From Candidatus Brockarchaeota archaeon (GTDB lineage Archaea; Thermoproteota; EX4484-205; JAAOZP01): DNA of 34,975 nucleotides. The position numbers and the translations under genes are program-made. Below the pieces are notes generated by a model. The model was given only the letters and a program-made list of their open reading frames with translations, ran no database searches and was not told the origin of the DNA. This document shows positions 2,976-33,991 of this stretch, one piece after another. Location of the stretch: NCBI GenBank assembly GCA_017601345.1, contig JAFNIT010000012.1:1-34975 (forward strand), given 5' to 3'. The stretch's first letter is position 1, and each line of letters begins with the position of its first letter.

Positions 2976-4187
2976 TTGGTTGGGGAAGACTTCCTAGAGA
3001 AGCTTAAGAAGCATTTAACTGATGACTTGGGTCTTAGGGACGTCATAACTGAAATGCCACGTGACCGAGGGTTTTTCAACGAGAAGATAGTTTGGAGTGT
3101 AAACGCTGAGACCGATTACGAGCCTTTTGAAGCATATGAGACTACGGATGGTAAAATAGTCGCCGGATATGGTCCTGCTGCGCACGTAGGCAACATGCTC
3201 TGGGATTATCTCCTAGATAAGGAGAAGTATGCAGATATTCTCGACTATAAGGCGCTTGTTAAGGAGAGGGATGATCTCCTACTCTCTCTTCAGGATAAGA
3301 GTAATTGGAGCAAGTATAGGGATGAGCTGAGTGGGGTAATCGAAATCCTTGAAAAAGGCGATGAGATAGCTAGGAATGCAAGCGCTCAGGCGGGTATTGA
3401 AATCAAACACGTTCTTCCCACCCCGCCTGAGAAAAACACTTTCTTTTACGCAAGCTTCGATGGGAGGGGTTTGAGCGATGATGCTAAGATAGAGAAAATA
3501 GGGAAAGCATGGCTCGTCCTCTCTAAAGCATTCGCAGAGATTTCGAAGAATGAGAGTGAAATATTAGAAAAATGGAAGGCTCAGATCCAAGAGAAGCGTA
3601 AGAGAGGAATCCTCCCTGAGGAGGAAGAATTCGCTAAAGCGGTTTCAGAGCTTCTTAAAAGCTGGACTTCAACCTGGTGTTCCTACGAAATCCCCTCAGG
3701 ATTCCCAGGGTTTGAGGGGGGAAGTGCTAAATGGATGGTGCGTACGCGTGGGGAACCATACGTAATGGTCTTTGAAACAGAAGACGGTAAAATCACGGTC
3801 GCATATGAAACCTTCCATGTACATTCTTCAATAAGCATAGATCACAAGCGTGGTGAAGATACTGATAGAATCGTCATGGAGCTTGCTAACAAGGAGAATT
3901 GGCCCAAGTATAAGAGTACAGATCTTAAGGATGTGATAGAAAGATACGAACTGGGTGAGGAGGTTGCTAAAAAGGCGAGAGAAATAACTGGGGTCGAGAC
4001 CAAGTTTTTCATTCCACGTAAACACTGTCACGATGCTGCGCTGTACGCAGTTTTTGACTCTAAGGGAATGAGCGTCGAAAAAAAGATAGAGATGATAAAG
4101 AATCTTGTAGACCTTCTTGGAATAGCCTACGGGGAGTTTAAGAGGGCAGACGAGGAAATAAGGGCGAAATACGGTTTAAAGAAATAG
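2976..4187 (+). CDS. Unknown protein made of two copies of one domain
   Basis: A 403-aa soluble, charged protein with no signal peptide or membrane segment; I do not recognise its family. The two halves are homologous. Residues about 35-190 and 250-395 share NWSKYRDEL.. / NWPKYKSTD.., GDEIARNASAQAG / GEEVAKKAREITG, then FYASFDGRGLSDDAKIEKI / LYAVFDSKGMSVEKKIEMI. A lysine/glutamate-rich helical linker (about 190-230) joins them. The start is TTG at 2976, supported by an AAGGAG ribosome-binding sequence just upstream; the nearby ATG at 2963 is out of frame. The copies are clearly diverged, so the duplication is old. It sits alone between the GH3 and proline genes, and the context gives no function. 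Confidence 0.85.
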   Translation: MVGEDFLEKLKKHLTDDLGLRDVITEMPRDRGFFNEKIVWSVNAETDYEPFEAYETTDGKIVAGYGPAAHVGNMLWDYLLDKEKYADILDYKALVKERDDLLLSLQDKSNWSKYRDELSGVIEILEKGDEIARNASAQAGIEIKHVLPTPPEKNTFFYASFDGRGLSDDAKIEKIGKAWLVLSKAFAEISKNESEILEKWKAQIQEKRKRGILPEEEEFAKAVSELLKSWTSTWCSYEIPSGFPGFEGGSAKWMVRTRGEPYVMVFETEDGKITVAYETFHVHSSISIDHKRGEDTDRIVMELANKENWPKYKSTDLKDVIERYELGEEVAKKAREITGVETKFFIPRKHCHDAALYAVFDSKGMSVEKKIEMIKNLVDLLGIAYGEFKRADEEIRAKYGLKK

Positions 4188-9615: not shown

Positions 9616-9642
9616 CAAACTAAAGTATAACTTTTGGAAACC

Positions 9643-9915
9643 ATGGTTGAACTTAAAGTCAAGGTTGGGGAGAAAGGACAAATATTGATTCCTAAAATAT
9701 TCAGGGATAAGTATGGAATAAAGGAGGGGACGAAAGTCTCGATCGAACCTACTGCCGAGGGCATCTTGATAAGAGGTAAACCTTCACCAGAGGAACTAAT
9801 GAAGAGACTTGAAGGACATGTGGAGAAAATCAGGGAACTAGGTGTTTCCGGTCTAAGGCTAGGGGACCTTAGGAAGGCTTATCTGGAAATGGAGTTCGAG
9901 GAGAGTATCGGTTGA
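9643..9915 (+). CDS. vapB: AbrB/MazE-fold antitoxin (VapB type)
   Basis: A 90-aa swapped-hairpin AbrB-type DNA-binding antitoxin. The N-terminal half carries the family pattern VKVGEKGQILIPKIFRDKYGIKEG (split here for length) and the strand ILIRGKP. The acidic C-terminal half (EELMKRLEGH... LEMEFEESIG) is the part that usually wraps the toxin. The gene ends in TTGA, where the toxin TTG start overlaps the TGA stop, so the two proteins are translationally coupled. VapB proteins normally repress their own promoter in complex with VapC. A TTG nine bases upstream would add only MET to the N-terminus. Confidence 0.88.
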   Translation: MVELKVKVGEKGQILIPKIFRDKYGIKEGTKVSIEPTAEGILIRGKPSPEELMKRLEGHVEKIRELGVSGLRLGDLRKAYLEMEFEESIG

Positions 9916-10334
9916 AAGTTTTTCTAGACTCCTGTTTCCTCATATACTTGAACGCAATGGTAGACGAGAAAAGAAGACTAATAGAAGAACTGTTTAGAAG
10001 GCTTATTAAAGAACAGCTTTTCACAAACATGCTCGTAGTAGACGAAGTACTCTACATATCTAGAAAGTATGGAGTAGCCTATGAAACTACACTGGAATTC
10101 TTGAAAAGCATAGTATTACCGTACACTGAGTTGTTGTCAGTTGAGGAGGAAGATTTGAAACCTGCAGAAAGGTACTTGCTAAACTATGGTTTAAAGCCAT
10201 CCGATGCCATACATTTGGCAACGATGGAGAAAGCGGGAATAAGCAATATAGTTTCCGAAGATCAAGAGTTCGACAAGGTTAAGGAAATTAAAAGAATTTG
10301 GATTCCTCCTGACGCTCCTCCCTTGAAACCTTAA
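9912..10334 (+). CDS. vapC: PIN-domain ribonuclease toxin (VapC type)
   Basis: A 140-aa PIN-domain endoribonuclease, presumably neutralised by the preceding antitoxin. The acidic active-site set is intact: Asp6 (VFLDSC), Glu45 (VVDEVLY), Asp98 (KPSDAIHLATM) and Asp117 (VSEDQEFD). The TTG start at 9912 overlaps the antitoxin stop by four bases, the usual VapBC arrangement. The length is normal for the family. The RNA target cannot be inferred. This working pair contrasts with the broken VapC near 32 kb. Confidence 0.92.
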   Translation: MKVFLDSCFLIYLNAMVDEKRRLIEELFRRLIKEQLFTNMLVVDEVLYISRKYGVAYETTLEFLKSIVLPYTELLSVEEEDLKPAERYLLNYGLKPSDAIHLATMEKAGISNIVSEDQEFDKVKEIKRIWIPPDAPPLKP

Positions 10335-14325: not shown

Positions 14326-15168
14326 ATGAAGTGTTTGATTTCTGTTTCCAGCGCTCCGATCGCTAGGCTTGGAGATAAGGAGTATTACGATTTAATAGGC
14401 ACTATAGGCGTGATGAAGAAGATTCTATCCGAGTCGGTTGTGGATGGCTTTGAGCTGCAGCTTGAGCCGGAATGGGATGGTGATAATCCTCCTTTAACTG
14501 ACAGGTATCTTGCAGATTGGACCAGGACACCTAAGTATACTGCTAGGGAAATAGTAGATGTTTTGGAAAGGGAGGCGCTGCCCATATTATCTGTACATGC
14601 GAGCAGAGATATTGGCAGTTATCTCTGCTCAAGCCGGGAGCGCGATTGGGAGAAAGGGAAACAGGCTGCATACGATGCTTTACTTATTGCCAGCGAGCTG
14701 GGAGCGAACGTCTGCGTATTCCATCTATGGGATACTTGGGCCACTAGTTTCGACCTAAGTCGTATAGTAAAAATTTTCTGTGAAATTACACGTGAATTCC
14801 CTAGTGTGAAGGCTTCGGTAGAGAATATTCCAACGCATTTAGAGGGTTACACGCCCTTTGCTTTAGTCAAGCTTTTCGACTACGTGACGCTTGACCTTCG
14901 GTGGGCAGCCCTCTACAATGAGCTGAATCGTTTTGAGACGCTTATTGATAAAGTAGTGAATGTCCATTTACGTGGAAAGCTTTTTCAGGGAGAATGGTTC
15001 TTGGATCATCTAAACACTGATTTCTATGAGGCTTTGAAAAGGATAAGGGACGACTGGGGATATGGAGGATTGTTGACCATGGAGCCCGACGGCGCGGTCG
15101 ACGGTCCGTTTGACAGTTCACGCTTCGAAAGCTTTATTAAAGCAATGAGAACACTGCGTACCACGTAG
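14326..15168 (+). CDS. Sugar phosphate isomerase/epimerase-like TIM-barrel protein
   Basis: A 280-aa protein of the xylose-isomerase-like / endonuclease IV-like TIM-barrel superfamily. The barrel-strand motifs appear in order: DGFELQLEPE, LSVHASRD, NVCVFHLWDT, SVENIPTH (metal-binding Glu), VTLDLRW (Asp), NVHLRGK (His) and LTMEPDG (Glu). These match the divalent-metal ligands of the family. No signal peptide is present, so it is cytoplasmic. The ATG at 14326 directly precedes the first barrel strand. An overlapping ATG at 14322 is out of frame. AT-rich promoter candidates lie at 14250-14260 and 14282-14292. The actual sugar is unknown, and the flanking genes are a decayed DUF3795 gene and the CDP-alcohol transferase remnant, so context does not help. 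Confidence 0.85.
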   Translation: MKCLISVSSAPIARLGDKEYYDLIGTIGVMKKILSESVVDGFELQLEPEWDGDNPPLTDRYLADWTRTPKYTAREIVDVLEREALPILSVHASRDIGSYLCSSRERDWEKGKQAAYDALLIASELGANVCVFHLWDTWATSFDLSRIVKIFCEITREFPSVKASVENIPTHLEGYTPFALVKLFDYVTLDLRWAALYNELNRFETLIDKVVNVHLRGKLFQGEWFLDHLNTDFYEALKRIRDDWGYGGLLTMEPDGAVDGPFDSSRFESFIKAMRTLRTT

Positions 15169-15510: not shown

Positions 15511-17415
15511 GTGACACTCCCCGTTGTAATCATTGCTGCAGGGGTGGCCTCTAGGCTAAGACCCTACTCAGAGGAGATACCTAAGTGCCTCATGGAGTTG
15601 GAACCAGATGTGACAATACTGGACTTTATATTGAGCAGGTTGGAAGATGCTAATCCTCCCCGCATCTTTATCGTTACAAGACCACAGTTTAGAAGAGTAC
15701 TTGAGGAGAAGCTGAAAGGTAAGGCGGATCTAGTGGAGACTGATAAGGAGAAGTTTGGGAACCTCTACAGTGTTAGCCTAGCTTTAAAAGGGTTAGATGC
15801 AGATAGTTTCCTCATCCTCATGTCTGATCATATTTACGAGAAAGCAGTGGTCGAAGAAGTTTTATCTTCAGGGAGTAAAGCAGCGTTCACTGTTTGTCTC
15901 GACAGGAAGCCTTCACGGACTGAGGCGGAGGAAGGTTTGAAAATCGTTTTGAATGAACAGGGAGTAGCCTACGTAGACAAGGAGGCTCTGCCTAGACATG
16001 GAATAGATACTGGCGTGATATTGTGTAGAGAAAAGTCTAGAAAATATATAGAGAGAGCAATAGAACAGTTTGGCCCTAGTGCAACGATAGCTGACGCGTT
16101 GAAGCTTGCTTCTGTAGACAATGAAGTGGATTACGTGGACGTTACTGGAAGGCTTTGGAAAGACATAGATACGCCTGATGACCTAATTAAGGGTAGAGAG
16201 GTTTACTGGCAAATATTAAGGAAAGAAAAGGAGAATGAGGGGGGATTAATTTCAAGATACCTCATTAAGCCTATATCAACGCGTATTTCAATCTCGATTT
16301 ATCGGAGTCTTGATGCGGAGCCTCTGGCGATAACATTGGTTTCACTAATCCTTGCCCTGTCTGCAGGTTTCCTTCTGATGATAAGAAGACCCTTATGGGG
16401 GGGATTGATTATCGGACTCGTATCTCTAATTGGTGAAGTAGGCAACGAACTAGTAAGCCTCTGTAACGGGAGGGCTTCTTGGAGGCTTCATATAAGCTCA
16501 TTGCTGGATCGCTTTTCAGATATTGCGATAGTAGGCGGGTTTTCAATGCCTCTACTATCAGTTGGAGACAGCAGCATCTTCGTTTTTACTATTCTTGCAA
16601 CTTCTAACATAATACTGGTGAGTTATACGGCTCAGATTTTGAACAGTATTGGTATAAAAGCAAGGAATTTAAGAAACATACCTGCAACTAGAGATGTACT
16701 CCTGTTTGTTGTTTTCATTACTTCATTGATTTCACTTCCACTGTATGGATTATACTACTTATCTATAGTCCCAATTTTCTACATATCGTACTCCATTATT
16801 CTGGCTCTGAGAAGTAGGAGAGAAAAAGCTAAGCCGAAGAAATTCAAGAATCTGCCTAAGCCTGAAATCGTAATAGAGAGGGGGGAAGTGGGTAGAAAGA
16901 TTGAAAGCCTTGTCTCCAATTCACTTAAACTGGCGTTATCACTCATATTCCTACATATGACAACGCCAGTGGTTTCAGACATAACGTTGATAAGCCTCGA
17001 CGACCTGGTTTTGAAGTCAGACCACTTGTTATCGTTCTTATCTCTAGCCATATCCATATACTTCGGGTACCGAATACTTATGGCTTTGAAATTCCTTATA
17101 GACGTTGTGACTAAACGCTTAGTATTGGTTCTTAGAATCTCGGAGTTCACGCTCAGACACATTTTGATTGATTCGTTATACATCTTGCTGGCCGTGGTGC
17201 TTTGGATTTATCTTCCTCCTCAGCTTAAACTCGTCCCCTATATCGGTGAAAGCCTTGCAAGGCTAGGAGCTTTAGCGATATTTGTCTTCTTCATACTAAT
17301 ACTTTATGATATGGCGAAGATTCTCTACAAGACTTTTGGAGACCTTTACAGGAGGATGATAGAGAAGATCACGGAGAAGATTCACGAAAGCATGAAGGCT
17401 TCTGAAAATGTTTAG
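15511..17415 (+). CDS. Fused nucleotidyltransferase / CDP-alcohol phosphotransferase-like membrane protein, transferase motif degenerate
   Basis: A 634-aa protein with the architecture of archaeal bifunctional inositol-1-phosphate cytidylyltransferase / di-myo-inositol phosphate phosphate synthase (IPCT-DIPPS). Residues 4-230 are an intact sugar nucleotidyltransferase: IAAGVASRLRPYSEEIPKCL, metal Asp106 (LMSDHIY) and WKDIDTPDDL (216-225). A membrane domain follows from about 270. Its CDP-alcohol phosphotransferase motif D-x2-DG-x2-AR..G-x3-D-x3-D is mostly lost: GEVGNELVS (308-316) stands where DxxDGxxAR should be, and only Asp333 and Asp337 of the later acidic residues persist. An extra membrane region with several more segments (about 455-620) extends the C-terminus. 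The start is GTG 15511. The next gene, 51 nt on, is a paralogue. Substrate identity is inferred, not shown. Confidence 0.85.
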   Translation: MTLPVVIIAAGVASRLRPYSEEIPKCLMELEPDVTILDFILSRLEDANPPRIFIVTRPQFRRVLEEKLKGKADLVETDKEKFGNLYSVSLALKGLDADSFLILMSDHIYEKAVVEEVLSSGSKAAFTVCLDRKPSRTEAEEGLKIVLNEQGVAYVDKEALPRHGIDTGVILCREKSRKYIERAIEQFGPSATIADALKLASVDNEVDYVDVTGRLWKDIDTPDDLIKGREVYWQILRKEKENEGGLISRYLIKPISTRISISIYRSLDAEPLAITLVSLILALSAGFLLMIRRPLWGGLIIGLVSLIGEVGNELVSLCNGRASWRLHISSLLDRFSDIAIVGGFSMPLLSVGDSSIFVFTILATSNIILVSYTAQILNSIGIKARNLRNIPATRDVLLFVVFITSLISLPLYGLYYLSIVPIFYISYSIILALRSRREKAKPKKFKNLPKPEIVIERGEVGRKIESLVSNSLKLALSLIFLHMTTPVVSDITLISLDDLVLKSDHLLSFLSLAISIYFGYRILMALKFLIDVVTKRLVLVLRISEFTLRHILIDSLYILLAVVLWIYLPPQLKLVPYIGESLARLGALAIFVFFILILYDMAKILYKTFGDLYRRMIEKITEKIHESMKASENV

Positions 17416-17466
17416 ATTTTTATTTGCGGGAAGAACTAATTAATAACGATCTCGGTGAGATGATAG

Positions 17467-18747
17467 ATGAGAGCTATAATACTAGCTACTGAGAAGGATT
17501 TCATATTTGATGAGGATAGGCCGCTTGCCCTAGTTAAGGTGTGTAGTATCCCTCTTATAGCTAGAATCTTGAATTCCATTAGAGCTGCAGGAATCAGAGA
17601 AGCTCTCATAGTTTTAGGATTCAAAGGGGAGGAGATACGGAAAATGCTTAAGGATGGTGAGGAAATAGGTCTGAGACTATTTTATCTTCAAGCAGGGGGA
17701 TATGAGGTTCCCGTGTTAAAGGAGTTTCTGGATGACGATTTACTGGTAATAAGTGCAGACCTCGTTATAGATACGGAGTTTGTAACTGAAATCATGAAGA
17801 TAGAAGGGAATGTTGCTTGCTATCTTAACGATAGGGCTATTGGAGTCTACAAGCTGGACAGGGAATACTCGAGACTTTTTCAATACGATTTTACTTCCAA
17901 TCTTAGTAAAATACTAGAAGAGATTGAGGCCGAGTCCATTAAACTAGACGTAGCTAAGATGGAGATGGAACATGTTGAGTTAAAACGTAAGGTTTCCCCA
18001 ATCTGTGTCAAGATAGATAGTAGGAATTCAATCGAGCTTGCTAAGAGGAAACTTGTTTTCAGAACTCAAAAAGGCCTTCACTTCACATCCTATATAAACA
18101 AGTCTATAGAGGACCACCTCATCTATCGTATAGCCGAAGTATCTTGGATAACTCCTAACAGGATAACAATCCTTACAAACTTGCTGGCTTATACCGTGGC
18201 AACATTATTCCTCTCAGGATGCATGAGGATAGCGGTGATCCTGGCTTACATAGTTGGAATATTGGACGGACTTGACGGAAAACTAGCTAGGGTGAGGGGG
18301 ATTTTAACGAAGCTTGGATATATTGAGCATACTTTCGACATGCTTTACGAGCAAACATGGTACGTGTGTTTCGCCTTAAGCCTATACTTTCTTGAAAGCA
18401 GTTATCTGCCGCTAGTTCTAGGACTATGCATGCTTCTCGTAGACAGTTTTGTGAGGCATTGCTATATGCAGTTTAAAGAGACTATGGGGAAGGCTTTAAC
18501 AGCATACACGAATTTCGACAGGGCCTTCGCCAAGGTTGACGGAAGAAGAAACGTATACGTCCTGTACATGGTGCTTTTCTCATGGATACCTTGGTTAGGT
18601 AAACCCTTGTATGCTATGTATGCAATGTTGACGCACTCGTCAGTCACAGCCGTAATATATGTGATAAGAGCTATTCAACACATGAGTGCCGTAGACAAGG
18701 CAGAAGGGCTGAAAGGGTTTCTTAAACTTGTTGGAAAGCCCGATTAA
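17467..18747 (+). CDS. Fused nucleotidyltransferase-like / CDP-alcohol phosphotransferase, nucleotidyltransferase motif degenerate
   Basis: A 426-aa paralogue of the preceding protein with the opposite pattern of conservation. The N-terminal domain keeps the nucleotidyltransferase fold (LVKVCSIPLIARIL, LLVISADLVID) but has lost the nucleotide-binding GxGxR loop: ILATEKDFIFDEDRPL replaces LAAGxGxRLxP. The C-terminal membrane domain keeps Asp267, Asp270, Gly271, Ala274 and Arg275 (DGLDGKLAR), then Gly284 and Asp291. The third acidic ligand is Glu287 rather than Asp, with one residue less spacing than in Archaeoglobus DIPPS. It probably joins a CDP-activated polyol phosphate to a second alcohol in the membrane, using a CDP-substrate made elsewhere, perhaps by its neighbour. 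ATG 17467 is preceded by a GGTGAGATG context. Probably co-transcribed with the upstream gene. Confidence 0.85.
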   Translation: MRAIILATEKDFIFDEDRPLALVKVCSIPLIARILNSIRAAGIREALIVLGFKGEEIRKMLKDGEEIGLRLFYLQAGGYEVPVLKEFLDDDLLVISADLVIDTEFVTEIMKIEGNVACYLNDRAIGVYKLDREYSRLFQYDFTSNLSKILEEIEAESIKLDVAKMEMEHVELKRKVSPICVKIDSRNSIELAKRKLVFRTQKGLHFTSYINKSIEDHLIYRIAEVSWITPNRITILTNLLAYTVATLFLSGCMRIAVILAYIVGILDGLDGKLARVRGILTKLGYIEHTFDMLYEQTWYVCFALSLYFLESSYLPLVLGLCMLLVDSFVRHCYMQFKETMGKALTAYTNFDRAFAKVDGRRNVYVLYMVLFSWIPWLGKPLYAMYAMLTHSSVTAVIYVIRAIQHMSAVDKAEGLKGFLKLVGKPD

Positions 18748-18766: not shown

Positions 18767-19051
18767 CTACTGTTGTTTATTACTATACTTCTCCCTTAGA
18801 GCCCTTAACATTTGTCTCAATTCTTCCCTGGAGGGGAAGCTTATGGCTCCAGCTGGACACCTATATTTACATGCTTCGCAGCCTACGACACAATTGTACG
18901 GTTTGGAAACCACGACCTTGTCTCCCTGCCTTGAATACACTCCACGCATGCAGAACTCGACGCAAGACCCGCATTTAATGCACAGATCCTGGTTTATCCT
19001 AGGGTACCATTCTATTTCTTCCCTCGGCAGCCATAGGTTTGCCTTACTCAT
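18767..19051 (-). CDS. 2x[4Fe-4S] ferredoxin-type protein
   Basis: A 94-aa electron-transfer protein with two [4Fe-4S] motifs: Cys24-x2-Cys27-x2-Cys30-x3-Cys34 and Cys54-x3-Cys58-x2-Cys61-x3-Cys65-Pro. The spacing of the second motif (x3 instead of x2 at the start) is typical of subunit-like ferredoxins rather than free clostridial ferredoxin. The charged C-terminal helix may bind a partner. ATG 19051 is preceded by a GGAGGT ribosome-binding sequence and follows the HdrA-like gene by 20 nt, so the two are co-transcribed and probably work together. The gene converges with the CDP-alcohol transferase gene. Confidence 0.92.
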   Translation of the reverse strand: MSKANLWLPREEIEWYPRINQDLCIKCGSCVEFCMRGVYSRQGDKVVVSKPYNCVVGCEACKYRCPAGAISFPSREELRQMLRALREKYSNKQQ

Positions 19052-19071
19052 TCTCGTAAACCTCCATTATT

Positions 19072-19455
19072 TCAACTAGCCGTTAGTTTTTCAATGGTTT
19101 CAGCAACTTTCTTCATGGCTTCCGGAGTCTCCATGTTTCTAAGGTCTAGCGAAACCACTTGCTTGTCGAAGTCGAGACCTTTCTCAGTGAAAACGTCCTT
19201 GAACATTTTCCTCTGCATCCTTGGATCGCATCCACCGATCACGTAGATCTTATCCTTACCCCCGTCTTTTAAGAGGTCTCTCAGGAAGTTGTCCCCATCC
19301 GTGACGCAGAGCTGCGGGTGGATAACAGCGTACTCAACGTCAAGCTCGTTTCTAACGAAGTTCACCAGTTTCCAGAGCTCTAGTTTCGCGAATCCGGGGC
19401 ATTCTCCGGTGCAGAAGCACATTATGAACCTGGGACGATTCTTAGCGTTCTTCAT
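19072..19455 (-). CDS. Small HdrA-N-like cysteine protein
   Basis: A 127-aa protein resembling the N-terminal domain of heterodisulfide reductase subunit A standing alone. The family-like segment VIGGCDPRMQRKMF matches the xACSPRxHExxF region of HdrA, and a cysteine cluster near the start (Cys13, Cys15, Cys19) plus Cys50 and Cys76 could hold an Fe-S cluster, as in HdrA. FAD-binding and the remaining HdrA domains are absent. It precedes the ferredoxin by 20 nt, suggesting a small electron-transfer pair. A TATA candidate on this strand (19484-19495) lies about 35 nt upstream of ATG 19455. The HdrA link is by motif only. Confidence 0.7.
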   Translation of the reverse strand: MKNAKNRPRFIMCFCTGECPGFAKLELWKLVNFVRNELDVEYAVIHPQLCVTDGDNFLRDLLKDGGKDKIYVIGGCDPRMQRKMFKDVFTEKGLDFDKQVVSLDLRNMETPEAMKKVAETIEKLTAS

Positions 19456-19602
19456 CTTGAAAACCTCACGTTGTCTATTGCCTTTTTAAATTTTTCCAGG
19501 GTCTGTTTCTAAGCCAACTATACTAATCATCAATCCAGAATACGTAGAACGCCGGAGCTTACTATTTCTTAGGATTTAAATCCACGACGGTCTACCCAAG
19601 CT

Positions 19603-20010
19603 TCAAAGCTTTGCTTCATCAATGATTATCTGAGCTATTTTCTGAACATCTCCCTCATATATATCGAGAGTCGGTATTTTCCGTAGGTACTTAGATATGT
19701 CGATCTCGTAGTCGATCTTTTTCCCAGCGTTTTCCAAGACTTTAGAGGCACACCTGTTGCCACACCCGTTTATAACTATGTTTCTCTTAGCTCTTCCAGC
19801 TATGTCTAGGTGCGGCTTCGAGCCTGCTGCGAGCGCTGTCGTGCAGCACATTCTGGCTTTGCCCAAGTTTGTGAGTAAAACTCCTATCTCATGTCCTATT
19901 TGCCCAACGTTCGCAGCCCCGTCGCAGACCCAGACCATGTTCTCCTGTTCAGCAACCTGGTGGCAGGGGTGTAGAATCCTGGGTTGGACAGCTTCCTTCT
20001 CACTAGGCAT
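19603..20010 (-). CDS. DGC-domain putative metal-binding protein
   Basis: A 135-aa protein with the layout of the DGC family: WVCDGAANVGQIGHE (Cys29), ARMCCTTALAAG (Cys55-Cys56), and INGCGNRCASKVLENAG (Cys83, Cys87). These cysteines are thought to bind zinc or another metal in the family. No enzymatic activity is established. It overlaps the upstream Mrp gene by one base (TAATG), so translation is coupled, and it is followed after a gap by the HdrA-like and ferredoxin genes. The pairing with an Fe-S carrier ATPase suggests a role in metal or cluster handling. Confidence 0.85.
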   Translation of the reverse strand: MPSEKEAVQPRILHPCHQVAEQENMVWVCDGAANVGQIGHEIGVLLTNLGKARMCCTTALAAGSKPHLDIAGRAKRNIVINGCGNRCASKVLENAGKKIDYEIDISKYLRKIPTLDIYEGDVQKIAQIIIDEAKL

Positions 20011-20963
20011 TAAGCATTCACCTCCTTGTTATCCGCCTCCCGTCTTAACCCATTTTTATCCATATTCCGAACATGTTCGGGATGCGTCTCCGTTTCAACA
20101 CTGCCTTTTTCAGAGAGAAACCCCCGTATTTTCTCAGCTATTTCAGCGAAGGATTTGGCTGCAGGCGAATCCTCCTGAACCATTATGAAAGGCATACCTT
20201 CGTCGGACGCTTCGCATATACGCGGGTCCAAAGGGATCCTCCCTAGGAAGGGAACCCCCAGCTCTCTAGACATAGCCTCCCCTCCCCCCTTTTTGAAAAC
20301 GTCTATCCTCGTCCCGCAGTTCGGACATATTAAGCCACTCATGTTTTCAACCACGCCTATGACCGGTATGTTAAGCTCCTTCGCGAACATCACTGCCTTC
20401 TTAACCACATCCTGAGAAACCTCTGACGGTATTGTGACGATGACCACGCCATCCATCTCCGGCAATAGCTGCATGACGCTTAGCGCCTCGTCACCGGTAC
20501 CCGGAGGCAGGTCGATGAGGAGGAGGTCGAGGTCTCCCCAAGTAATGTCGGACAGGAATTGCCTGATCGCCGACATCTTAATGGGGCCGCGCCATATGAC
20601 AGGTGTCTCCTGACTAGGCAGTAGGAAATCTATTGAGACAACTTTGATTCCTAAGGGGCCTGTTGCAGGGAAGGCTCCGATTGGGCTTATTTTGAGAATA
20701 TCTCCCTTCATGCCGAGCATCCTAGGTACGCATGGGCCATGAATATCTGCATCCAGAATACCTATCTTACCCGAAGTACTTTTTTTGGCGAAAGCCACCG
20801 CCAGGTTCACCGTCACCATCGTTTTACCTACTCCACCCTTGCCGCTGATCACTGCAATCTTATGTTTCACTCTGCTCATTCTCTCTCTGAGTCTTCTCTC
20901 TTGTTCTTCAATAGTTTTCATCCTGTGCCCACACGACGCGTTTTCAGCGTAATACTCTGTCAT
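20010..20963 (-). CDS. Mrp/NBP35 family P-loop ATPase (Fe-S cluster carrier)
   Basis: A 317-aa cytosolic ATPase of the Mrp/NBP35/ApbC family that carries and delivers Fe-S clusters. Visible motifs are the deviant Walker A with two lysines (AVISGKGGVGKT, about residues 37-48), LDADIHGPCVPRMLG, LLIDLPPGTGDE, and the C-terminal CxxC (ICPNCGT) that bridges a cluster between subunits. A ~35-residue N-terminal extension with one Cys and a charged C-terminal tail flank the core. ATG 20963 is supported by a TATA box on this strand at 20989-20998, about 30 nt upstream. Its stop overlaps the DGC gene start. Confidence 0.95.
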   Translation of the reverse strand: MTEYYAENASCGHRMKTIEEQERRLRERMSRVKHKIAVISGKGGVGKTMVTVNLAVAFAKKSTSGKIGILDADIHGPCVPRMLGMKGDILKISPIGAFPATGPLGIKVVSIDFLLPSQETPVIWRGPIKMSAIRQFLSDITWGDLDLLLIDLPPGTGDEALSVMQLLPEMDGVVIVTIPSEVSQDVVKKAVMFAKELNIPVIGVVENMSGLICPNCGTRIDVFKKGGGEAMSRELGVPFLGRIPLDPRICEASDEGMPFIMVQEDSPAAKSFAEIAEKIRGFLSEKGSVETETHPEHVRNMDKNGLRREADNKEVNA

Positions 20964-21043: not shown

Positions 21044-21958
21044 TTAGCTTTCCCTCCTGTAAGGTTTGCCTAAGGCTGCGGGTGCGCCAAGCCTTTTCCT
21101 CATGAAACCTATCGAACCTGTTGTTAAAACAAGTATAGTAGTAAAGTAGGGCAGCGTTCTTAGCAGGCTTGCAGGAACCCTGTATTCCTGGAGGTAAAAC
21201 TGCAGAACTTCGACTCCACCGAAGAGATATGCTCCAATAATGCTCCCGAGGGGGTTCCACAGAGAGAATATTGTTAGTGATAGAGCTATCCAGCCCCTGC
21301 CCCTGATTATCCCCTCCTTCCAGAAGGGAGTATAGAATAGAGTTACGTAGGCACCACCAAGGCCTCCTAAGAATCCTCCCGAGAGAACGCACAGATATCT
21401 AACTAAGTGCACGTTAACCCCTGCAGCATCTGCAGCCTCAGGTTTCTCGCCAATTGTCCTTATGATTATTCCAATCCTCGTTTTGAAGAGAATAAACCAC
21501 ATCATTATTGAGAGCACTATGCTAAAGTATACTATTGGATCGTGAACGAAAAAACCGCCTGCTAAAGGTATTTCTGACAACACCGGTATTTGGAATATCT
21601 GAAGTCTTTCTGGAAGAGGCTGCCCCACGTATTTTCCTCCAATAAGGCTACTGACTCCTGTCCCAAGCATTGTAAGCGCTAATCCTGAAACAGTTTGGTT
21701 AGCTCCCAGGCTTATGCTTGTGAAAGCATGTATAAGAGAAAACAGGCCACCGGCAATCATTGCTGAAAAAACACCTATCCAAACAGATCCCGTGGCTAAT
21801 GTTGCAACGAAGCCCGCTAAGGCCCCGATTGTCATCACGCCCTCTAATCCAAGGTTTAGGACACCTGATCTCTCACAGTATATCTCTCCCAGTGTTGCCA
21901 ACAACAATGGTGTTCCAGATCTAATAGCCTCGGCCAGTATTGAAGCAGCTATATCCAA
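21044..21958 (-). CDS. BMP-type nucleoside ABC transporter, permease 2
   Basis: A 304-aa integral membrane permease of the BMP (basic membrane protein) transporter family. The N-terminus LGEIYCERSGVLNLGLEGVM is the hallmark of the NupQ/BmpC-like permease, followed by hydrophobic segments and IGEKPEAADAAGVNV, the cytoplasmic coupling region. It starts at TTG 21958 and overlaps the end of the first permease by 10 nt, a tight operon. Together with that permease it forms the transmembrane pore. Families of this type import purine nucleosides or related compounds; the exact substrate is not visible. Confidence 0.92.
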   Translation of the reverse strand: MDIAASILAEAIRSGTPLLLATLGEIYCERSGVLNLGLEGVMTIGALAGFVATLATGSVWIGVFSAMIAGGLFSLIHAFTSISLGANQTVSGLALTMLGTGVSSLIGGKYVGQPLPERLQIFQIPVLSEIPLAGGFFVHDPIVYFSIVLSIMMWFILFKTRIGIIIRTIGEKPEAADAAGVNVHLVRYLCVLSGGFLGGLGGAYVTLFYTPFWKEGIIRGRGWIALSLTIFSLWNPLGSIIGAYLFGGVEVLQFYLQEYRVPASLLRTLPYFTTILVLTTGSIGFMRKRLGAPAALGKPYRRES

Positions 21959-23028
21959 ATTTTCCTCCCTCTTGCCTCTATTAAAATCCTGTATCTGGTT
22001 AAAATTTCGCTGCCGATGAAGAAGAGAAGAATCATTCCATTAAACACGTCTACAAAGCTAGCTCTTAACCTGAGTGAAACCTGTACAGAATCACTGCCAA
22101 CCATCAAGCCGCTTATGAAGAAAGAAGCCAGTAGTGCCGCTAGCGGGTTTAAGCCTCCAAGCCAAGCAGGAATGATCGCCGTATAACCGTACCCAGGAGA
22201 GATGTTTTCTATCAGCCTACCTTGTACACCAGCAACTTCCCCTACTCCAGCTATTCCAGCAAGGCCTCCGCTTATCAACATGACGGTTAGAATATTTTTA
22301 GACACGTTTATTCCAGCATACCTAGCAGCTTCAGGATTACTTCCAACAATCTTAATCTCATAACCTATTCTCGTCCTACTCATAAACACATAAAGAATTA
22401 TCGCTAATACTAAAAGTAAAATGAGAGTATAGTAATGTATCCTAGTTCCTCCTATTAATGGAAATCTCGCATAACTTGGAAATGGGTCTGTCAGAGGGAA
22501 GCCTCTTTGAGAAGGCCCTTTCCATGGACCTGTTAAAACGTAATCTAATAATTCTAACGAGATATAGTTCATCATAAGAGTCGTAATAACCTCGTTAACA
22601 TTCAGCTTTATTTTCAATACAGCGGGAATCGCCGCCCATAGAGCCCCGGCTGCGAAACCTGCAAGCAACATCACAGCACCAACCAAGCTTGAAGGGATAT
22701 TCGAGTATAATGCAATCCATGTAGCAGCCATGGCTCCGAGTATAAGCTGTCCTTCTGCACCTATGTTAAGCACTCTAGCCTTATACGCTATTGCAAGACC
22801 CGTTGCACATAATCCTATGGGCAGCATTTTCACAATTGTTTCAGATAAGCCGAATTCGCTTCCAAAGGCGTTCATGAAAATCCTAGCATATGCTTCAAGC
22901 GGGTTAATGCCGTAGATAGCAAACAGGATTCCAACGAGTACTAGGGAGAGAAGTAGAGTAAATATTCTTATTGATGCATTAAACCCTTTGGATACGACTA
23001 TTCTTTTCTCCACTCTTATTTGCATCAT
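21949..23028 (-). CDS. BMP-type nucleoside ABC transporter, permease 1
   Basis: A 359-aa permease of the NupP/BmpB type, with many hydrophobic segments, YKARVLNIGAEGQLILGAMA near residue 85 and IVGSNPEAARYAGINV as the coupling helix. Its ATG overlaps the stop of the ATPase gene (ATGA), so its translation is coupled. The first ~15 residues are basic and cytoplasmic. It is the heterodimer partner of the permease encoded next. Confidence 0.93.
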   Translation of the reverse strand: MMQIRVEKRIVVSKGFNASIRIFTLLLSLVLVGILFAIYGINPLEAYARIFMNAFGSEFGLSETIVKMLPIGLCATGLAIAYKARVLNIGAEGQLILGAMAATWIALYSNIPSSLVGAVMLLAGFAAGALWAAIPAVLKIKLNVNEVITTLMMNYISLELLDYVLTGPWKGPSQRGFPLTDPFPSYARFPLIGGTRIHYYTLILLLVLAIILYVFMSRTRIGYEIKIVGSNPEAARYAGINVSKNILTVMLISGGLAGIAGVGEVAGVQGRLIENISPGYGYTAIIPAWLGGLNPLAALLASFFISGLMVGSDSVQVSLRLRASFVDVFNGMILLFFIGSEILTRYRILIEARGRKIWI

Positions 23029-24572
23029 GCCCCTGACACTTTGTTCCGCATTCTTTCGTCGTATGCTTCCCCTGCAGCCATCGCAAGCCCGATTTCATTG
23101 ACAGTTACATTTCTATCAAATTCTTTGACTATTCTTCCATTCTTCATAACGATTATCCTGTTACTTAACGATAGTATTTCATCTAAGTCTTCAGAAACAA
23201 GCAAGATACTACTGCCTGAGGCCCTAAGTCTGTGGAAAACCCAATGCACGTAATTCGTTGAAGCAACGTCTAATCCTGAAGTAGGATTACTTGCAATAAG
23301 TATCTTGGGCTTTATTGAGAGCTCCCTAGCTATTATTAATTTCTGAATGTTTCCGCCAGAAATCATGTTTACAGGAGCATTCGCACTGGGAGTAACTATT
23401 TCGAATTCTTGAATAAGCCTCTCTGCTTCCTTTCCGATAGCTTTATTATCCATAAAGACCCCTCTGGAAAACCTTTTGTGAAGTTTCATTATCAGGTTGT
23501 CGGAGACACTTAACTCTGTAGCTACTCCGTACCTAAGCCTGTCCTCAGGAATGTGTGCAACACTCATCTTGATAATTTTATTTGGAGGACTGTTTGTGAC
23601 ATCTACTCCAAACATTTTAATAGAACCACCTGCCACCTTTCTCAGCCCCGTTATCGCTTCCACAAGCTCCCTCTGACCATTACCAGCAACCCCTGCAACA
23701 CCCAGTATTTCACCCTCCCTGAGGACAAACGATACGCCGTCTACTGCAACAATTCCCCTATCGTCTAAGACTCTTAAATCATCTACTTCTAATACTGGCT
23801 TAGCCTCCTTTATCACTTCCCCAGCCTTAGGCTTGAATTCGAGGACTTTACCAACTATCATGCTAACCAGGTCAATTCTGCTGGCTTCACTCGGCTTAAT
23901 GTCTGCCGCTACAACTCTTCCTTTTCTGAGAATCGTTATGGAATCACTAGCCTTAAGAGCCTCGTCAAGCCTATGCGTTATCAGAATTATAGACTTGCCT
24001 GTATTAGCCATCTTCTTTATGGATTTGAAAAGATCCTCCGATTCTAACGGTGTTAAAACAGAAGTAGGTTCGTCCAGAATGAGAATTCTGACATCTCTGT
24101 AAAGCGTTTTAAGTATTTCAACTCTCTGCTGCTCCCCTATGGAGAGCTGCCATATTTTTGCATCGAGATTAATCTTCAACCCATAAGTTTCTGACAATTC
24201 CATTATTTTATTTCTGATTTCGTTGAAAGGAATTCTTAAACCACCCTCTAGAAAAAGAGCGATGTTTTCCAAAACTGTGAGCCTATCGACGAGCATAAAG
24301 TGCTGGTGAACCATTCCAATTCCCATTCTTAACGCGTCTCTTGGCGAGCCTATGCTGACTTTACGCCCTTCTATAAATATCTCACCGGCATCAGGCCTAT
24401 ACATGCCGTAGAGTATTCTCATCAAAGTCGTCTTACCTGCACCGTTCTCACCGAGGAGTGCATGGATCTCTCCCACTCTTACCTTAAAGTCGACACTATC
24501 CAATGCAGTAACGGTGGGAAACCTCTTTACGATCCCACGCATTTCAACGAGATAGTTCTCGTTAGTAGTCAA
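23025..24572 (-). CDS. BMP-type nucleoside ABC transporter, duplicated ATPase
   Basis: A 515-aa ATPase with two fused ABC domains that powers the permeases. Domain 1 has a full Walker A (LLGENGAGKTTLMR), signature LSIGEQQRVEIL and Walker B ILILDEPTSVLT. Domain 2 has the degenerate Walker A GVAGNGQRELVEAI, signature ISGGNIQKLIIARE and ILIASNPTSGLD, as usual for NupO/RbsA-like proteins where only one site hydrolyses well. It starts at ATG 24572, 54 nt after the binding-protein gene. Confidence 0.96.
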   Translation of the reverse strand: MTTNENYLVEMRGIVKRFPTVTALDSVDFKVRVGEIHALLGENGAGKTTLMRILYGMYRPDAGEIFIEGRKVSIGSPRDALRMGIGMVHQHFMLVDRLTVLENIALFLEGGLRIPFNEIRNKIMELSETYGLKINLDAKIWQLSIGEQQRVEILKTLYRDVRILILDEPTSVLTPLESEDLFKSIKKMANTGKSIILITHRLDEALKASDSITILRKGRVVAADIKPSEASRIDLVSMIVGKVLEFKPKAGEVIKEAKPVLEVDDLRVLDDRGIVAVDGVSFVLREGEILGVAGVAGNGQRELVEAITGLRKVAGGSIKMFGVDVTNSPPNKIIKMSVAHIPEDRLRYGVATELSVSDNLIMKLHKRFSRGVFMDNKAIGKEAERLIQEFEIVTPSANAPVNMISGGNIQKLIIARELSIKPKILIASNPTSGLDVASTNYVHWVFHRLRASGSSILLVSEDLDEILSLSNRIIVMKNGRIVKEFDRNVTVNEIGLAMAAGEAYDERMRNKVSGA

Positions 24573-24626
24573 ATTCGTAAAAACCTTGGGAGAAATAAAA
24601 AGCGACGTATCTTAACCTTGCTGAAG

Positions 24627-25847
24627 TCATCCCGATGGAGAACCTATTATATTATCTACAAACCAGTTCATTTGCTCCGTGAAGAGTTGTTCAATAGTAG
24701 CCCTCTGCCCCGCTTGGATCTTTATGTTTCCATTTTGGTCCATAATTGGCCCCGTAAAAGGATCGAAAGGCACGTTAGCTTCCTTCATTAAAGCTAGTCT
24801 GTTCATAACAGCATCGTAAGCACTTATCGATTTTCCTGGCAAATACTTGTTTTTCAGCTCATCGATAAATTTCGGGTTAACTGGTACGCCTGGCTTACCT
24901 CCTAACTCTACCGCACCTTCCTTAAGCATCCATAGATAATCTACATTCTCCAAATTAGTATTGTTGTAAACGTTTAATGCAACCTTCATAAGAATATCCG
25001 CATATATAACTTCCCAATGTACTAATTGACCGCTGACGACAACATCTGGACCAACGTTCTGCATGGGACTGTAATGCGAGAAGACATAGAGCTGCTTACC
25101 CTGCTCATACTGCTGCTGAGCAAATTCAACAATCGCCGTCGAGTCTTCTGTGAAAGCAAGAGTATCTACACCTATGCTTACAAGAGCTTGCGCAGCCTCC
25201 CTCGCCAATTCAGGAGCATACCATTCATGAAGCCACCTTACATAGACTTTCGCCTCAGGATTAGCCTCCTTAACGCCTAGAGCAAAGGCATTGATGTGTC
25301 TTATGACTTCAGGAATGGGGTGGGCAGCTACATAACCTACTTTACCTGTCTTGGTTAATGCTCCTGCCATTAAGCCGTTTAGATAATACACTTGGTAGAA
25401 GTCTACAAAGTATGTCCCAGAGTTAGGGCGCCTCTTAAAACCGCTACAATGGAAAAACAGTTTGTCAGGATATCTTTGAGCAACATCTATAGTTGGATCC
25501 ATGAATCCATAGCTGGTTGTAAAAACAATGTCAGCACCCTCCTCTCTTACAAGCCTTTCAATATACCTAGCGGCCTCCGCTTCTTCTACACTTTCTACGT
25601 ATACTGTTTCAAGCCAGGGGAAGAGCTTTTCAACATGCTTCCTAGCTTGGTCGTGGGCAGCAGTCCATCCAAAATCCTCGACGGGGCCGACATAGATGAA
25701 CCCTGCCTTAAGCTTTTTCACCGGCATACCGTATTCGTATCCAGGGACTTTACCCCACCCTCCTGCCACATAGCCTATTGCTACACCTACCGCGAAGAAA
25801 ATCGCTATTAGGAGAACCATTATTCCACTAATCTTGGGAATACTCAT
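24627..25847 (-). CDS. BMP-family substrate-binding protein, membrane anchored
   Basis: The extracellular solute receptor of the ABC transporter, 406 aa. An N-terminal hydrophobic segment (about residues 9-30) anchors it. There is no lipobox cysteine, so it is held as a transmembrane anchor, unlike bacterial BMP lipoproteins. The family pattern KAGFIYVGPVEDFGWTAAHD appears at about residue 47, with DIVFTTSYGFMD and VGYVAAHPIPEV later. It is the first gene of the operon binding protein-ATPase-permease-permease, all on the minus strand. A TATA candidate lies about 40 nt upstream (25882-25895). The ligand is probably a nucleoside, by family only. Confidence 0.94.
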   Translation of the reverse strand: MSIPKISGIMVLLIAIFFAVGVAIGYVAGGWGKVPGYEYGMPVKKLKAGFIYVGPVEDFGWTAAHDQARKHVEKLFPWLETVYVESVEEAEAARYIERLVREEGADIVFTTSYGFMDPTIDVAQRYPDKLFFHCSGFKRRPNSGTYFVDFYQVYYLNGLMAGALTKTGKVGYVAAHPIPEVIRHINAFALGVKEANPEAKVYVRWLHEWYAPELAREAAQALVSIGVDTLAFTEDSTAIVEFAQQQYEQGKQLYVFSHYSPMQNVGPDVVVSGQLVHWEVIYADILMKVALNVYNNTNLENVDYLWMLKEGAVELGGKPGVPVNPKFIDELKNKYLPGKSISAYDAVMNRLALMKEANVPFDPFTGPIMDQNGNIKIQAGQRATIEQLFTEQMNWFVDNIIGSPSG

Positions 25848-32610: not shown

Positions 32611-33501
32611 TTACGGTAGAGTTATCGAAGTTAGGATGTCTTCTCCACTTGCTGTATGAAGAACTATGTTTAAAGTAGTTCCGGATTTTAATGTGGTTGG
32701 GCCTATCTTATCACCGTTTTTTAGATCTATTGTGAAAACAACCGTTCCCCCAGCTGGTAGAGGCACGCCTCTGCCTAATGAAAAAACAGTGCTATCGTTC
32801 ACTTTTAGTATCTTGCTGCTACTGGTCCATGCACCATTTAGATTGCAAGCAACCCCGTTTATCATGACTGAGGTAATCGCAGTATCGGTGGAACCTGTAC
32901 CCTTTGCTGTGACGTTAACCGTCCATCCCTCCGGCTCGGGCTTAGGTTTAGGCTTGAATACAAGAACCGCGACTCCAGCCACTATTACAGTGATGAAGCC
33001 TAAGATAGCGAGGAATAAGCCGAGCAGGAAGGCTCCGGCTGAAGTCGAGTAGTCAACTATCTTCTTCTCGTAACTTATCCTTGCTCGAAGAACCACAGTC
33101 TCATTATAGTTGCTCGCATTCTCAATAACAAAATATATGTTGCTTTTAGCCTGGTCCTTGGTGAGAGGAAATATGAAAGAGTCGCCCATTATTCCCTTCT
33201 TCTCATAGTAAGCTGAATAGGGTTTGCCTAAATAGAGGTTGCGGAAATTCTCATCGTTAAAAACGTAGAAGTTGAAGTTGTTGCCACTGCTCTCTCTAAC
33301 ATTACCCTCAAGCACAATGTTTCTAACCTCGCTCATGTTTAAAAAGAAAAGCGGAGCAAGCCATGCATAATAGCTCGTGTACTCGGACCATGACCTTTCA
33401 ATAACCTCAACATAGCTTATTGTAGCACTAACTATAACCACTCGACTCAATGCTTCAGAAGGAGCCTGCGGGTTAAGCTCAGATTTAGGAACTTCAGCCA
33501 A
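32611..33501 (-). CDS. C-terminal part of a frameshifted membrane protein with repeated ectodomain
   Basis: Downstream part of a gene split by a single-base frameshift near 33500 (see the next entry). It encodes the end of ectodomain repeat 1 (SEALSRVVIVSATISYVEV), a full repeat 2 (NIVLEGNVRESS... FNFYVFNDENFRN... GKPYSAYYEKKG... SNIYFVIEN... TVVLRARISYEKK), one transmembrane segment (AFLLGLFLAILGF...), a KPKPKPEPEG linker, and a ~100-residue strand-rich domain ending LKSGTTLNIVLHTASGEDIL that resembles the C-terminal beta domains of archaeal pilin-like proteins. TTG 33501 could start it independently, but without a signal peptide. An ATG at 33687 in this frame would translate the wrong frame of the upstream part, so it is not used. 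Confidence 0.7.
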   Translation of the reverse strand: MAEVPKSELNPQAPSEALSRVVIVSATISYVEVIERSWSEYTSYYAWLAPLFFLNMSEVRNIVLEGNVRESSGNNFNFYVFNDENFRNLYLGKPYSAYYEKKGIMGDSFIFPLTKDQAKSNIYFVIENASNYNETVVLRARISYEKKIVDYSTSAGAFLLGLFLAILGFITVIVAGVAVLVFKPKPKPEPEGWTVNVTAKGTGSTDTAITSVMINGVACNLNGAWTSSSKILKVNDSTVFSLGRGVPLPAGGTVVFTIDLKNGDKIGPTTLKSGTTLNIVLHTASGEDILTSITLP

Positions 33502-33991
33502 AATAGAAAAGAGAGGGAAGCTCTTCTTTACTGTTAAAAGCTTTTGCGAAGCTGTAGGAAGAGGCTCCTGAGCCCTTGTAGTAAGCTTCTGAAGCCAAAC
33601 CATTCCTCCAGATTTCAAAGTTCGAAGAGTCAAAAACATAGAAGTCAAAAACTCTTGTGGGAGAATGCTGCTCAACTGCGGTTCCACTTACAACAATGTT
33701 CTTAGCGTCGCCAAGAATTAGTGGAGAGAGTGCAAAATAGAACCAGTAAGTTCCACTCCAGTTATTCAGGTACTCCCAGTAAGTAGGCCTTACTGAAATA
33801 GCATCCTCAACAAGGCTTACACTTTTCGCCTCTTCTTTCAGTCTCGCTAAGATTCCAAGCGTTTTTTCCACAGAGATGCTACTCGGCTCCCAGGCAACCT
33901 TGACAAGACTTGGAGAGATAAATACCATAATAATCCCTAGGATAAGAAGAACTAAACCTAAAACGAAAAGTATCTTTGGGACTTTCCTCAT
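33494..33991 (-). CDS. N-terminal part of the frameshifted membrane protein
   Basis: Starts at ATG 33991 (MRKVPKILFVLGLVLLILG, a signal-anchor) and contains ectodomain repeat 1: YWEYLNNWSGTYWFYFALSP, NIVVSGTAVEQ, DFYVFDSSNFEIWRNG and ASEAYYKGSG. It stops at TGA 33494 just where repeat 2 in the downstream part continues with strand YFVIEN. Removing one T from the TTTT run (plus-strand AAAA 33500-33503) joins the two parts into one protein of about 459 aa. ATG 33991 is preferred over 34084 because a TATA box (34014-34024, minus strand) lies about 25-30 nt upstream. Function unknown; the layout suggests a surface protein. Confidence 0.7.
   Translation of the reverse strand: MRKVPKILFVLGLVLLILGIIMVFISPSLVKVAWEPSSISVEKTLGILARLKEEAKSVSLVEDAISVRPTYWEYLNNWSGTYWFYFALSPLILGDAKNIVVSGTAVEQHSPTRVFDFYVFDSSNFEIWRNGLASEAYYKGSGASSYSFAKAFNSKEELPSLFYFG

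Follow-up and report, generated by a model that had tools for sequence, protein, structure and literature searches.

The 34,975-nucleotide stretch of the Candidatus Brockarchaeota archaeon contig JAFNIT010000012.1 analysed in the present study (the window) contains two adjacent genes, ORF1 and ORF2, located on one strand and separated by 51 nt. Their products probably constitute an inositol-phosphodiester synthase made up of two proteins acting in trans, which would have arisen by the displacement of a transferase. Both proteins combine a nucleotidyltransferase (NT) domain with a CDP-alcohol phosphotransferase (CDP-AP) domain, in the order known for the bifunctional IPCT-DIPPS (DIPP, di-myo-inositol phosphate phosphate), and they have opposite defects: ORF1 has an intact NT site and a dead transferase site, and ORF2 has a degenerate NT domain and a transferase site of a modified type. 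The preliminary description, made from the sequence alone, supposed that two reactions of one ancestral bifunctional enzyme had been divided between paralogues; the mechanism (division of labour) is right in outline and wrong in origin. Below, G and L with numbers denote genomes and loci, g1 is the Brockarchaeota genus and f28 is a distant Thermoproteota family.

Complementary defects of the two proteins

The first 434 residues of ORF1 align with the full-length IPCT-DIPPS model NF041135 (4e-43), and the protein matches the structure PDB 4mnd (1e-24); the NF041135 score (147.9 bits) does not reach the curated cut-off of 580. The Pfam scan gave no PF01066 match for ORF1, and the score against the archaetidylinositol phosphate synthase model NF040950 was 22.5 bits, below the cut-off of 180. 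The AlphaFold2 model of ORF1 (pLDDT 72, with an unreliable C-terminal part) has 4mnd as its best Foldseek match (TM-score 0.80 by target length), and the models of ORF1 and ORF2 both contain the six-helix CDP-AP fold found in 4mnd. The NF041135 and 4mnd matches, together with the models, bear out the two-domain layout of IPCT-DIPPS proposed for both proteins. The NT residues of ORF1, comprising AAGVASRL, K25, MSDH (containing D106), GIDTG and WKDIDTP, are retained by every Brockarchaeota copy, and the NT residues are intact across all orthologues aligned, in agreement with the earlier reading of this domain.

The reference CDP-AP signature, in which the role of each Asp has been described (PMC4634129), contains eight residues, D1xxD2G1xxAR...G2xxxD3xxxD4. 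Seven of them are lost in ORF1, where GEVGNELVS replaces DxxDGxxAR, as had been recognised before; the sole survivor, D4 (D333), is present in all six g1 copies. The PNxxT cytidine motif preceding the signature is likewise lost. A search along the whole of ORF1 found no D..DG..AR anywhere, and the alignment of the Brockarchaeota copies with intact sisters is unambiguous, which rules out the relocation of the transferase residues within the domain. The C-terminal membrane extension, thought at first to be a gain of ORF1, is common to its intact relatives; since the intact sister L250/L291 carries the same extension, the latter is ancestral, and the idea of a new gain was rejected. Homologues of the extension also occur as separate membrane proteins about 180 aa long (L032, L082, L083 and L084), and the two of these that were scanned had no Pfam match.

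ORF2 matches PF01066 at 1.9e-8 (35.3 bits, gathering threshold 22) and, weakly but over its whole length, PDB 4mnd (4e-9). Its scores against NF041135 (78.3 bits, cut-off 580) and NF040950 (39.3 bits, cut-off 180) do not reach the cut-offs, and the role described by NF040950 is filled by a different gene. The AlphaFold2 model of ORF2 (pLDDT 89, pTM 0.83) contains six membrane-length helices, and its fold matches 4mnd and AF2299 (TM-score 0.82 by target length). The alignment confirmed that the nucleotide loop of the NT domain is gone in all orthologues; the degenerate region itself is predicted with a pLDDT mostly between 73 and 96 by 10-residue block.

The transferase site of ORF2 contains D1, D2, G1, A, R, G and D4, while D3 is replaced by Glu287, the spacing after G2 is shorter by one residue, and His288 comes next; the motif DGLDGKLAR is thus present as claimed, but the signature to which it belongs is not a standard one. 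The PNxxT CDP-binding motif is intact. The Glu, the His and D4 are invariant in alignments of 11 and 31 rows across a subfamily that is named EH here, after the replacement of D3 by Glu and the subsequent His. EH transferases also occur by themselves in many archaea and bacteria, frequently next to a separate NT gene. Bathyarchaeal operons at L153 (1784-3143) and L155 (5986-7258) contain genes for inositol-phosphate synthase (IPS), an NT, an EH transferase and a canonical CDP-AP; here a single cytidylyltransferase apparently supplies both transferases. In G012, a fused NT-EH gene (L074, 8496-9951) is disrupted by a change of frame and an in-frame TGA, with another copy (L075) at a distance of 20 kb.

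Distribution and origin of the pair

The tandem pair was found in five g1 genomes (66–72% identity) and in seven f28 genomes, where the two genes overlap. This recurrence, along with the motif alignments, substantiates the complementary loss of active sites in a conserved pair, for which a look into related genomes had been suggested. One f28 genome, G118, is that of Thermofilum pendens Hrk 5, and its 31,504-base contig is identical to plasmid NC_008696.1 over the 8,000 bases tested; on the chromosome of this organism, the pair occupies positions 1186233-1188059 and 1188056-1189300. The pair is the only neighbourhood that f28 shares with the window, the flanking genes on either side being not clearly conserved there, and in the f28 pseudo-domain even D4 is gone in most of the aligned copies. 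At the syntenic Brockarchaeota locus of G004 (L081, 8879-9301), ORF1 is absent and a broken remnant of ORF2 lies beside a 96% identical flanking gene, so the pair was lost there as a unit.

The ω values are about 0.16–0.32 for the ORF1 pseudo-transferase and 0.13–0.18 for the degenerate NT domain of ORF2, compared with 0.07–0.19 for the live NT domain and 0.06–0.10, in the better-resolved pairs, for the live EH domain. A pseudogene reading is ruled out by this purifying selection and by full-length conservation over distant genomes, and a chance origin is excluded because the pattern is both conserved and under purifying selection. A second copy of ORF1 in G002 (L068 1-1773, contig G002:C49) is 78% identical to the window ORF1, versus 70% for the main-locus copy; it is located on a small contig, possibly from another population. 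The Baldrarchaeota metagenome-assembled genomes (MAGs) contain ORF2 orthologues without ORF1 (L136 and L140), with transferase domains up to 80% identical to those of Brockarchaeota and the NT gene elsewhere (L216 and L217), which may reflect transfer or MAG misassignment.

Of the 398 Thermoproteota genomes sampled, 14 have a dead ORF1-type transferase, and 13 of these also have an EH transferase; no EH transferase was found in the 19 that have an intact long fusion (Fisher p 2e-8, uncorrected for kinship). An archaetidylinositol-phosphate-synthase-like gene (NF040950, 144–190 bits, cut-off 180) is present in these genomes, and besides it a single additional transferase, an EH protein or an intact fusion, is encoded by the f28 genomes and by most of the g1 ones; such a single slot is the pattern expected if one enzyme displaced the other. 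A separate IPCT-DIPPS gene was sought in the genus and none was found. All genomes tested have IPS, whose gene adjoins the NT and EH genes in many relatives.

The NT tree (115 sequences) unites 35 long NT-CDP-AP fusions, ORF1 included, in one clade (support 100/99); 20 of them have an intact signature and 15 are dead. The dead fusions require at least three changes on this tree, and a single dead clade is rejected (p=0.0037). At least three separate losses of the transferase took place in the ORF1 family: in Brockarchaeota, in the Thermofilum family and on a third branch. This third lineage, G237 (L304, 11656-13635), has an unlinked EH transferase with no NT domain at all (L339, 2591-3313). 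The Brockarchaeota ORF1 has as its sister the intact 633-aa protein of L250/L291, 58% identical over 626 residues and located outside any pair. The CDP-AP domains of EH proteins form one clade (100/100) apart from the ORF1 domain, and joining the two is rejected by the AU test (p=0.007). The f28 pseudo-domain is too diverged for placement in the CDP-AP tree (end branch 6.1), so that its descent rests on the NT tree and the full-length alignment. Within EH, a clade of 22 rows (100/97) unites ORF2, its f28 counterparts and relatives from Baldrarchaeota, Njordarchaeota and Latescibacterota, all with a degenerate or absent NT domain; their NT partner is an adjacent stand-alone protein, an unlinked one, or ORF1.

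Since the loss is repeated, and since EH is nearly always present with a dead and absent with an intact ORF1-type transferase, a foreign EH transferase appears to have displaced that of ORF1, and no single bifunctional enzyme was split. Duplication of one bifunctional IPCT-DIPPS with reciprocal loss in the two copies, the origin proposed in the preliminary description, agrees with the shared two-domain layout but is rejected by the trees and extremely improbable, given that the CDP-AP domains belong to different subfamilies, that an intact ORF1 sister exists outside any pair and that EH proteins are widespread alone, often beside a separate NT.

Putative mode of action and product

The NT domain of ORF1, judging by its intact motifs and fold, would make CDP-inositol from CTP and inositol-1-phosphate, and the EH domain of ORF2 would then transfer phosphoinositol from CDP-inositol to an acceptor alcohol. 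According to the trees, ORF1 descends from a long fusion whose DIPPS-type transferase was functional; that transferase died and was displaced by the EH one. Because both dead domains are under purifying selection, they presumably have a structural job: the ORF1 transferase may have been kept as a membrane anchor and dimerisation surface, and the ORF2 NT domain as a docking or scaffold domain. A cultivated, heat-loving archaeon has this arrangement too, and the two proteins are therefore likely to serve jointly in a single inositol-linking pathway. CDP-APs are homodimers (PMC4634129), which makes a heterodimer of ORF1 and ORF2 through their two CDP-AP folds plausible.

Several points weigh against this scheme. 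The exclusion pattern includes three independent pairs only, a number that does not suffice for a test corrected for phylogeny (sign test p 0.25–0.5), though those that differ agree in direction. In G299, a dead ORF1-type protein, its copy cut by the contig end, occurs with no EH gene detected, and in G237 the two genes are unlinked. The replacement of D3 by Glu has no precedent among characterised CDP-APs in the literature searched, and the activity of ORF2 is therefore deduced from invariance alone.

Perhaps the displacement took place without the formation of a complex, ORF1 being a membrane-anchored cytidylyltransferase, ORF2 an independent transferase, and the dead domains an anchor and a relic; we consider this a serious alternative with somewhat less than an even chance. 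The unlinked genes of G237 are consistent with it, as is the interchangeable NT partner in the EH clade with degenerate NT domains, which may be adjacent and stand-alone (L143, L144 and L148), unlinked (Baldrarchaeota) or of the ORF1 type, whereas the fact that two dead domains have been retained at full length under purifying selection and the tight tandem linkage in two distant families argue against it.

Whether the pair makes a soluble phosphodiester or an inositol lipid is about even. A soluble product is suggested by the DIPPS-like character of the displaced domain. Kennedy-type synthesis of an inositol ether lipid from CDP-inositol and a lipid alcohol is a realistic possibility, a little short of even. 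In favour of it, the Glu-His pair resembles D3-His of choline phosphotransferases, for which the motif G2ExxD3HxxD4 was proposed with His133 as the base deprotonating the diacylglycerol hydroxyl (PMC10182977; for the likeness and the role of His, also PMC10156783). Like ORF2, with its invariant His288 after Glu287, the eukaryotic choline/ethanolamine phosphotransferases CHPT1 and CEPT1 have an acidic residue and then His before D4, but they possess ten helices rather than the six of the EH domain, lack an NT domain and have Glu directly after G2, where the EH alignment has Tyr or another residue. Remote verrucomicrobial EH relatives (L209-L213) are located among sphingolipid-type genes (serine-palmitoyltransferase-like, ketosphinganine-reductase-like, GNAT and sphingolipid-desaturase-like) with a second CDP-AP. 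The groups bearing EH include ones usually regarded as mesophilic, where di-myo-inositol phosphate (DIP) is not expected, and this also speaks for a lipid. CDP-inositol is the donor for inositol lipids in Rhodothermus marinus (Jorge et al. 2015, cited in PMC9246714), and a CDP-inositol route to such lipids has been proposed for Bacteroides (the Bacteroides vulgatus cluster; PMC9246714). These routes likewise employ an NT making CDP-inositol and a CDP-AP using that donor, but they are bacterial. Against a lipid product stand the archaetidylinositol-phosphate-synthase-like gene already present in the genomes, the helix number, the DIPPS type of the replaced transferase and the remoteness of the Verrucomicrobia branch. 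The most elaborate version, an obligate heteromer of reciprocally dead enzymes, formed at least twice by displacement by foreign EH transferases and making an inositol ether lipid Kennedy-style beside the archaetidylinositol pathway, is unlikely as a whole.

Another polyol or sugar phosphate might be activated instead of inositol-1-phosphate, as NT families switch substrate easily, the IPCT relative CpgD using phosphoglycerate (PMC12275187), and IPS is not adjacent to the pair in g1 and f28. This is rather unlikely, since the closest structures are those of IPCTs, many relatives have IPS-NT-EH operons and all genomes tested contain IPS. That ORF2 is also dead as a transferase, both proteins being regulators or scaffolds, is suggested by the departure of its signature from the eight residues but is very improbable in view of the invariant Glu, His and D4, the low ω of the EH domain and the fact that EH is the only non-housekeeping CDP-AP in f28.

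The favoured two-protein synthase can be compared with known systems. The bifunctional IPCT-DIPPS of Archaeoglobus fulgidus (4mnd) and Thermococcales (NF041135) has the same domain order and fold as both window proteins and aligns with ORF1 over its full length, but it has two working sites in one protein, as opposed to one site per protein in the pair, and ORF2 comes from another CDP-AP subfamily. AF2299 (PDB codes 4o6m, 4o6n and 4q7c), the second-best fold match of ORF2, also joins an NT-like cytosolic domain to a working CDP-AP (the activity of ORF2 is predicted); unlike ORF2, it is of the canonical type in the CDP-AP tree (DGCDGEIAR...GAWLDGVLD) and is described as a single protein, and to our knowledge no partner with the inverse defect is known. 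Separate IPCT and DIPPS-like genes (e.g., L079 and L234, with IPS) also distribute the NT and the transferase over two polypeptides, but these are single-domain proteins with no dead second domain. The literature searched contained no description of such a pair or of a CDP-AP pseudoenzyme.

Genomic surroundings and significance

Features of the pair and its upstream neighbour in the window
Feature	Position	Strand	Details
ORF1: NT + pseudo-CDP-AP + C-terminal membrane domain	15511..17415	+	634 aa, GTG start
ORF1 NT domain, aa 1-240, catalytic residues intact	15511..16230	+	PF12804 2.7e-11, PF00483 5.3e-11, motif alignment
ORF1 pseudo-CDP-AP, aa 245-435, 6-helix fold retained, signature gone	16243..16815	+	Foldseek top match 4mnd; alignment
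ORF1 lost-signature site, aa 308-333, GEVGNELVS...D333, D4 sole remnant	16432..16509	+	
ORF1 C-terminal membrane extension, aa 446-625	16846..17385	+	homologues in intact fusions and stand-alone ~180-aa proteins
ORF2: degenerate NT + EH-type CDP-AP, 426 aa	17467..18747	+	
ORF2 degenerate NT, aa 1-195, nucleotide loop absent, fold retained	17467..18051	+	alignment; AlphaFold2 model; AF2299 and 4mnd matches
ORF2 EH-type CDP-AP, aa 196-426	18052..18744	+	PF01066 1.9e-8; alignment
ORF2 signature D267-D291, DGLDGKLAR...G-YI-E287-H288-TF-D291	18265..18339	+	alignments
TIM-barrel (AP_endonuc_2-like) neighbour ORF	14326..15168	+	upstream of pair

The TIM-barrel ORF is full-length in G003 and G005 and shortened or broken in G002 and G007, so it is probably not essential to the pair. 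Downstream, a block at 18767-20963 contains Fer4, DGC-domain, small redox-type and Mrp/NBP35-type ATPase genes and also adjoins the pair in other genomes of the genus. Elsewhere in the window, an AbrB/MazE-like regulator gene overlaps a PIN-domain gene (9634-10334), likely forming a toxin-antitoxin pair; positions 21044-25847 contain a PnrA/BMP-type ABC importer operon with two permeases, a double ATPase and a binding protein; and two ORFs of 403 and 358 aa (2976-4187 and 32611-33687) had no Pfam match at the thresholds used.

The pair offers a natural case of complementary pseudo-domains, in which the same active site is dead on at least three branches, in genomes that contain a substitute from another subfamily. 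It also draws attention to a large and apparently undescribed EH subfamily of CDP-APs with an altered metal-binding signature, found in archaea and bacteria and often in IPS operons. Thermofilum pendens provides a cultivated organism in which one may ask what a second inositol-phosphodiester pathway makes.

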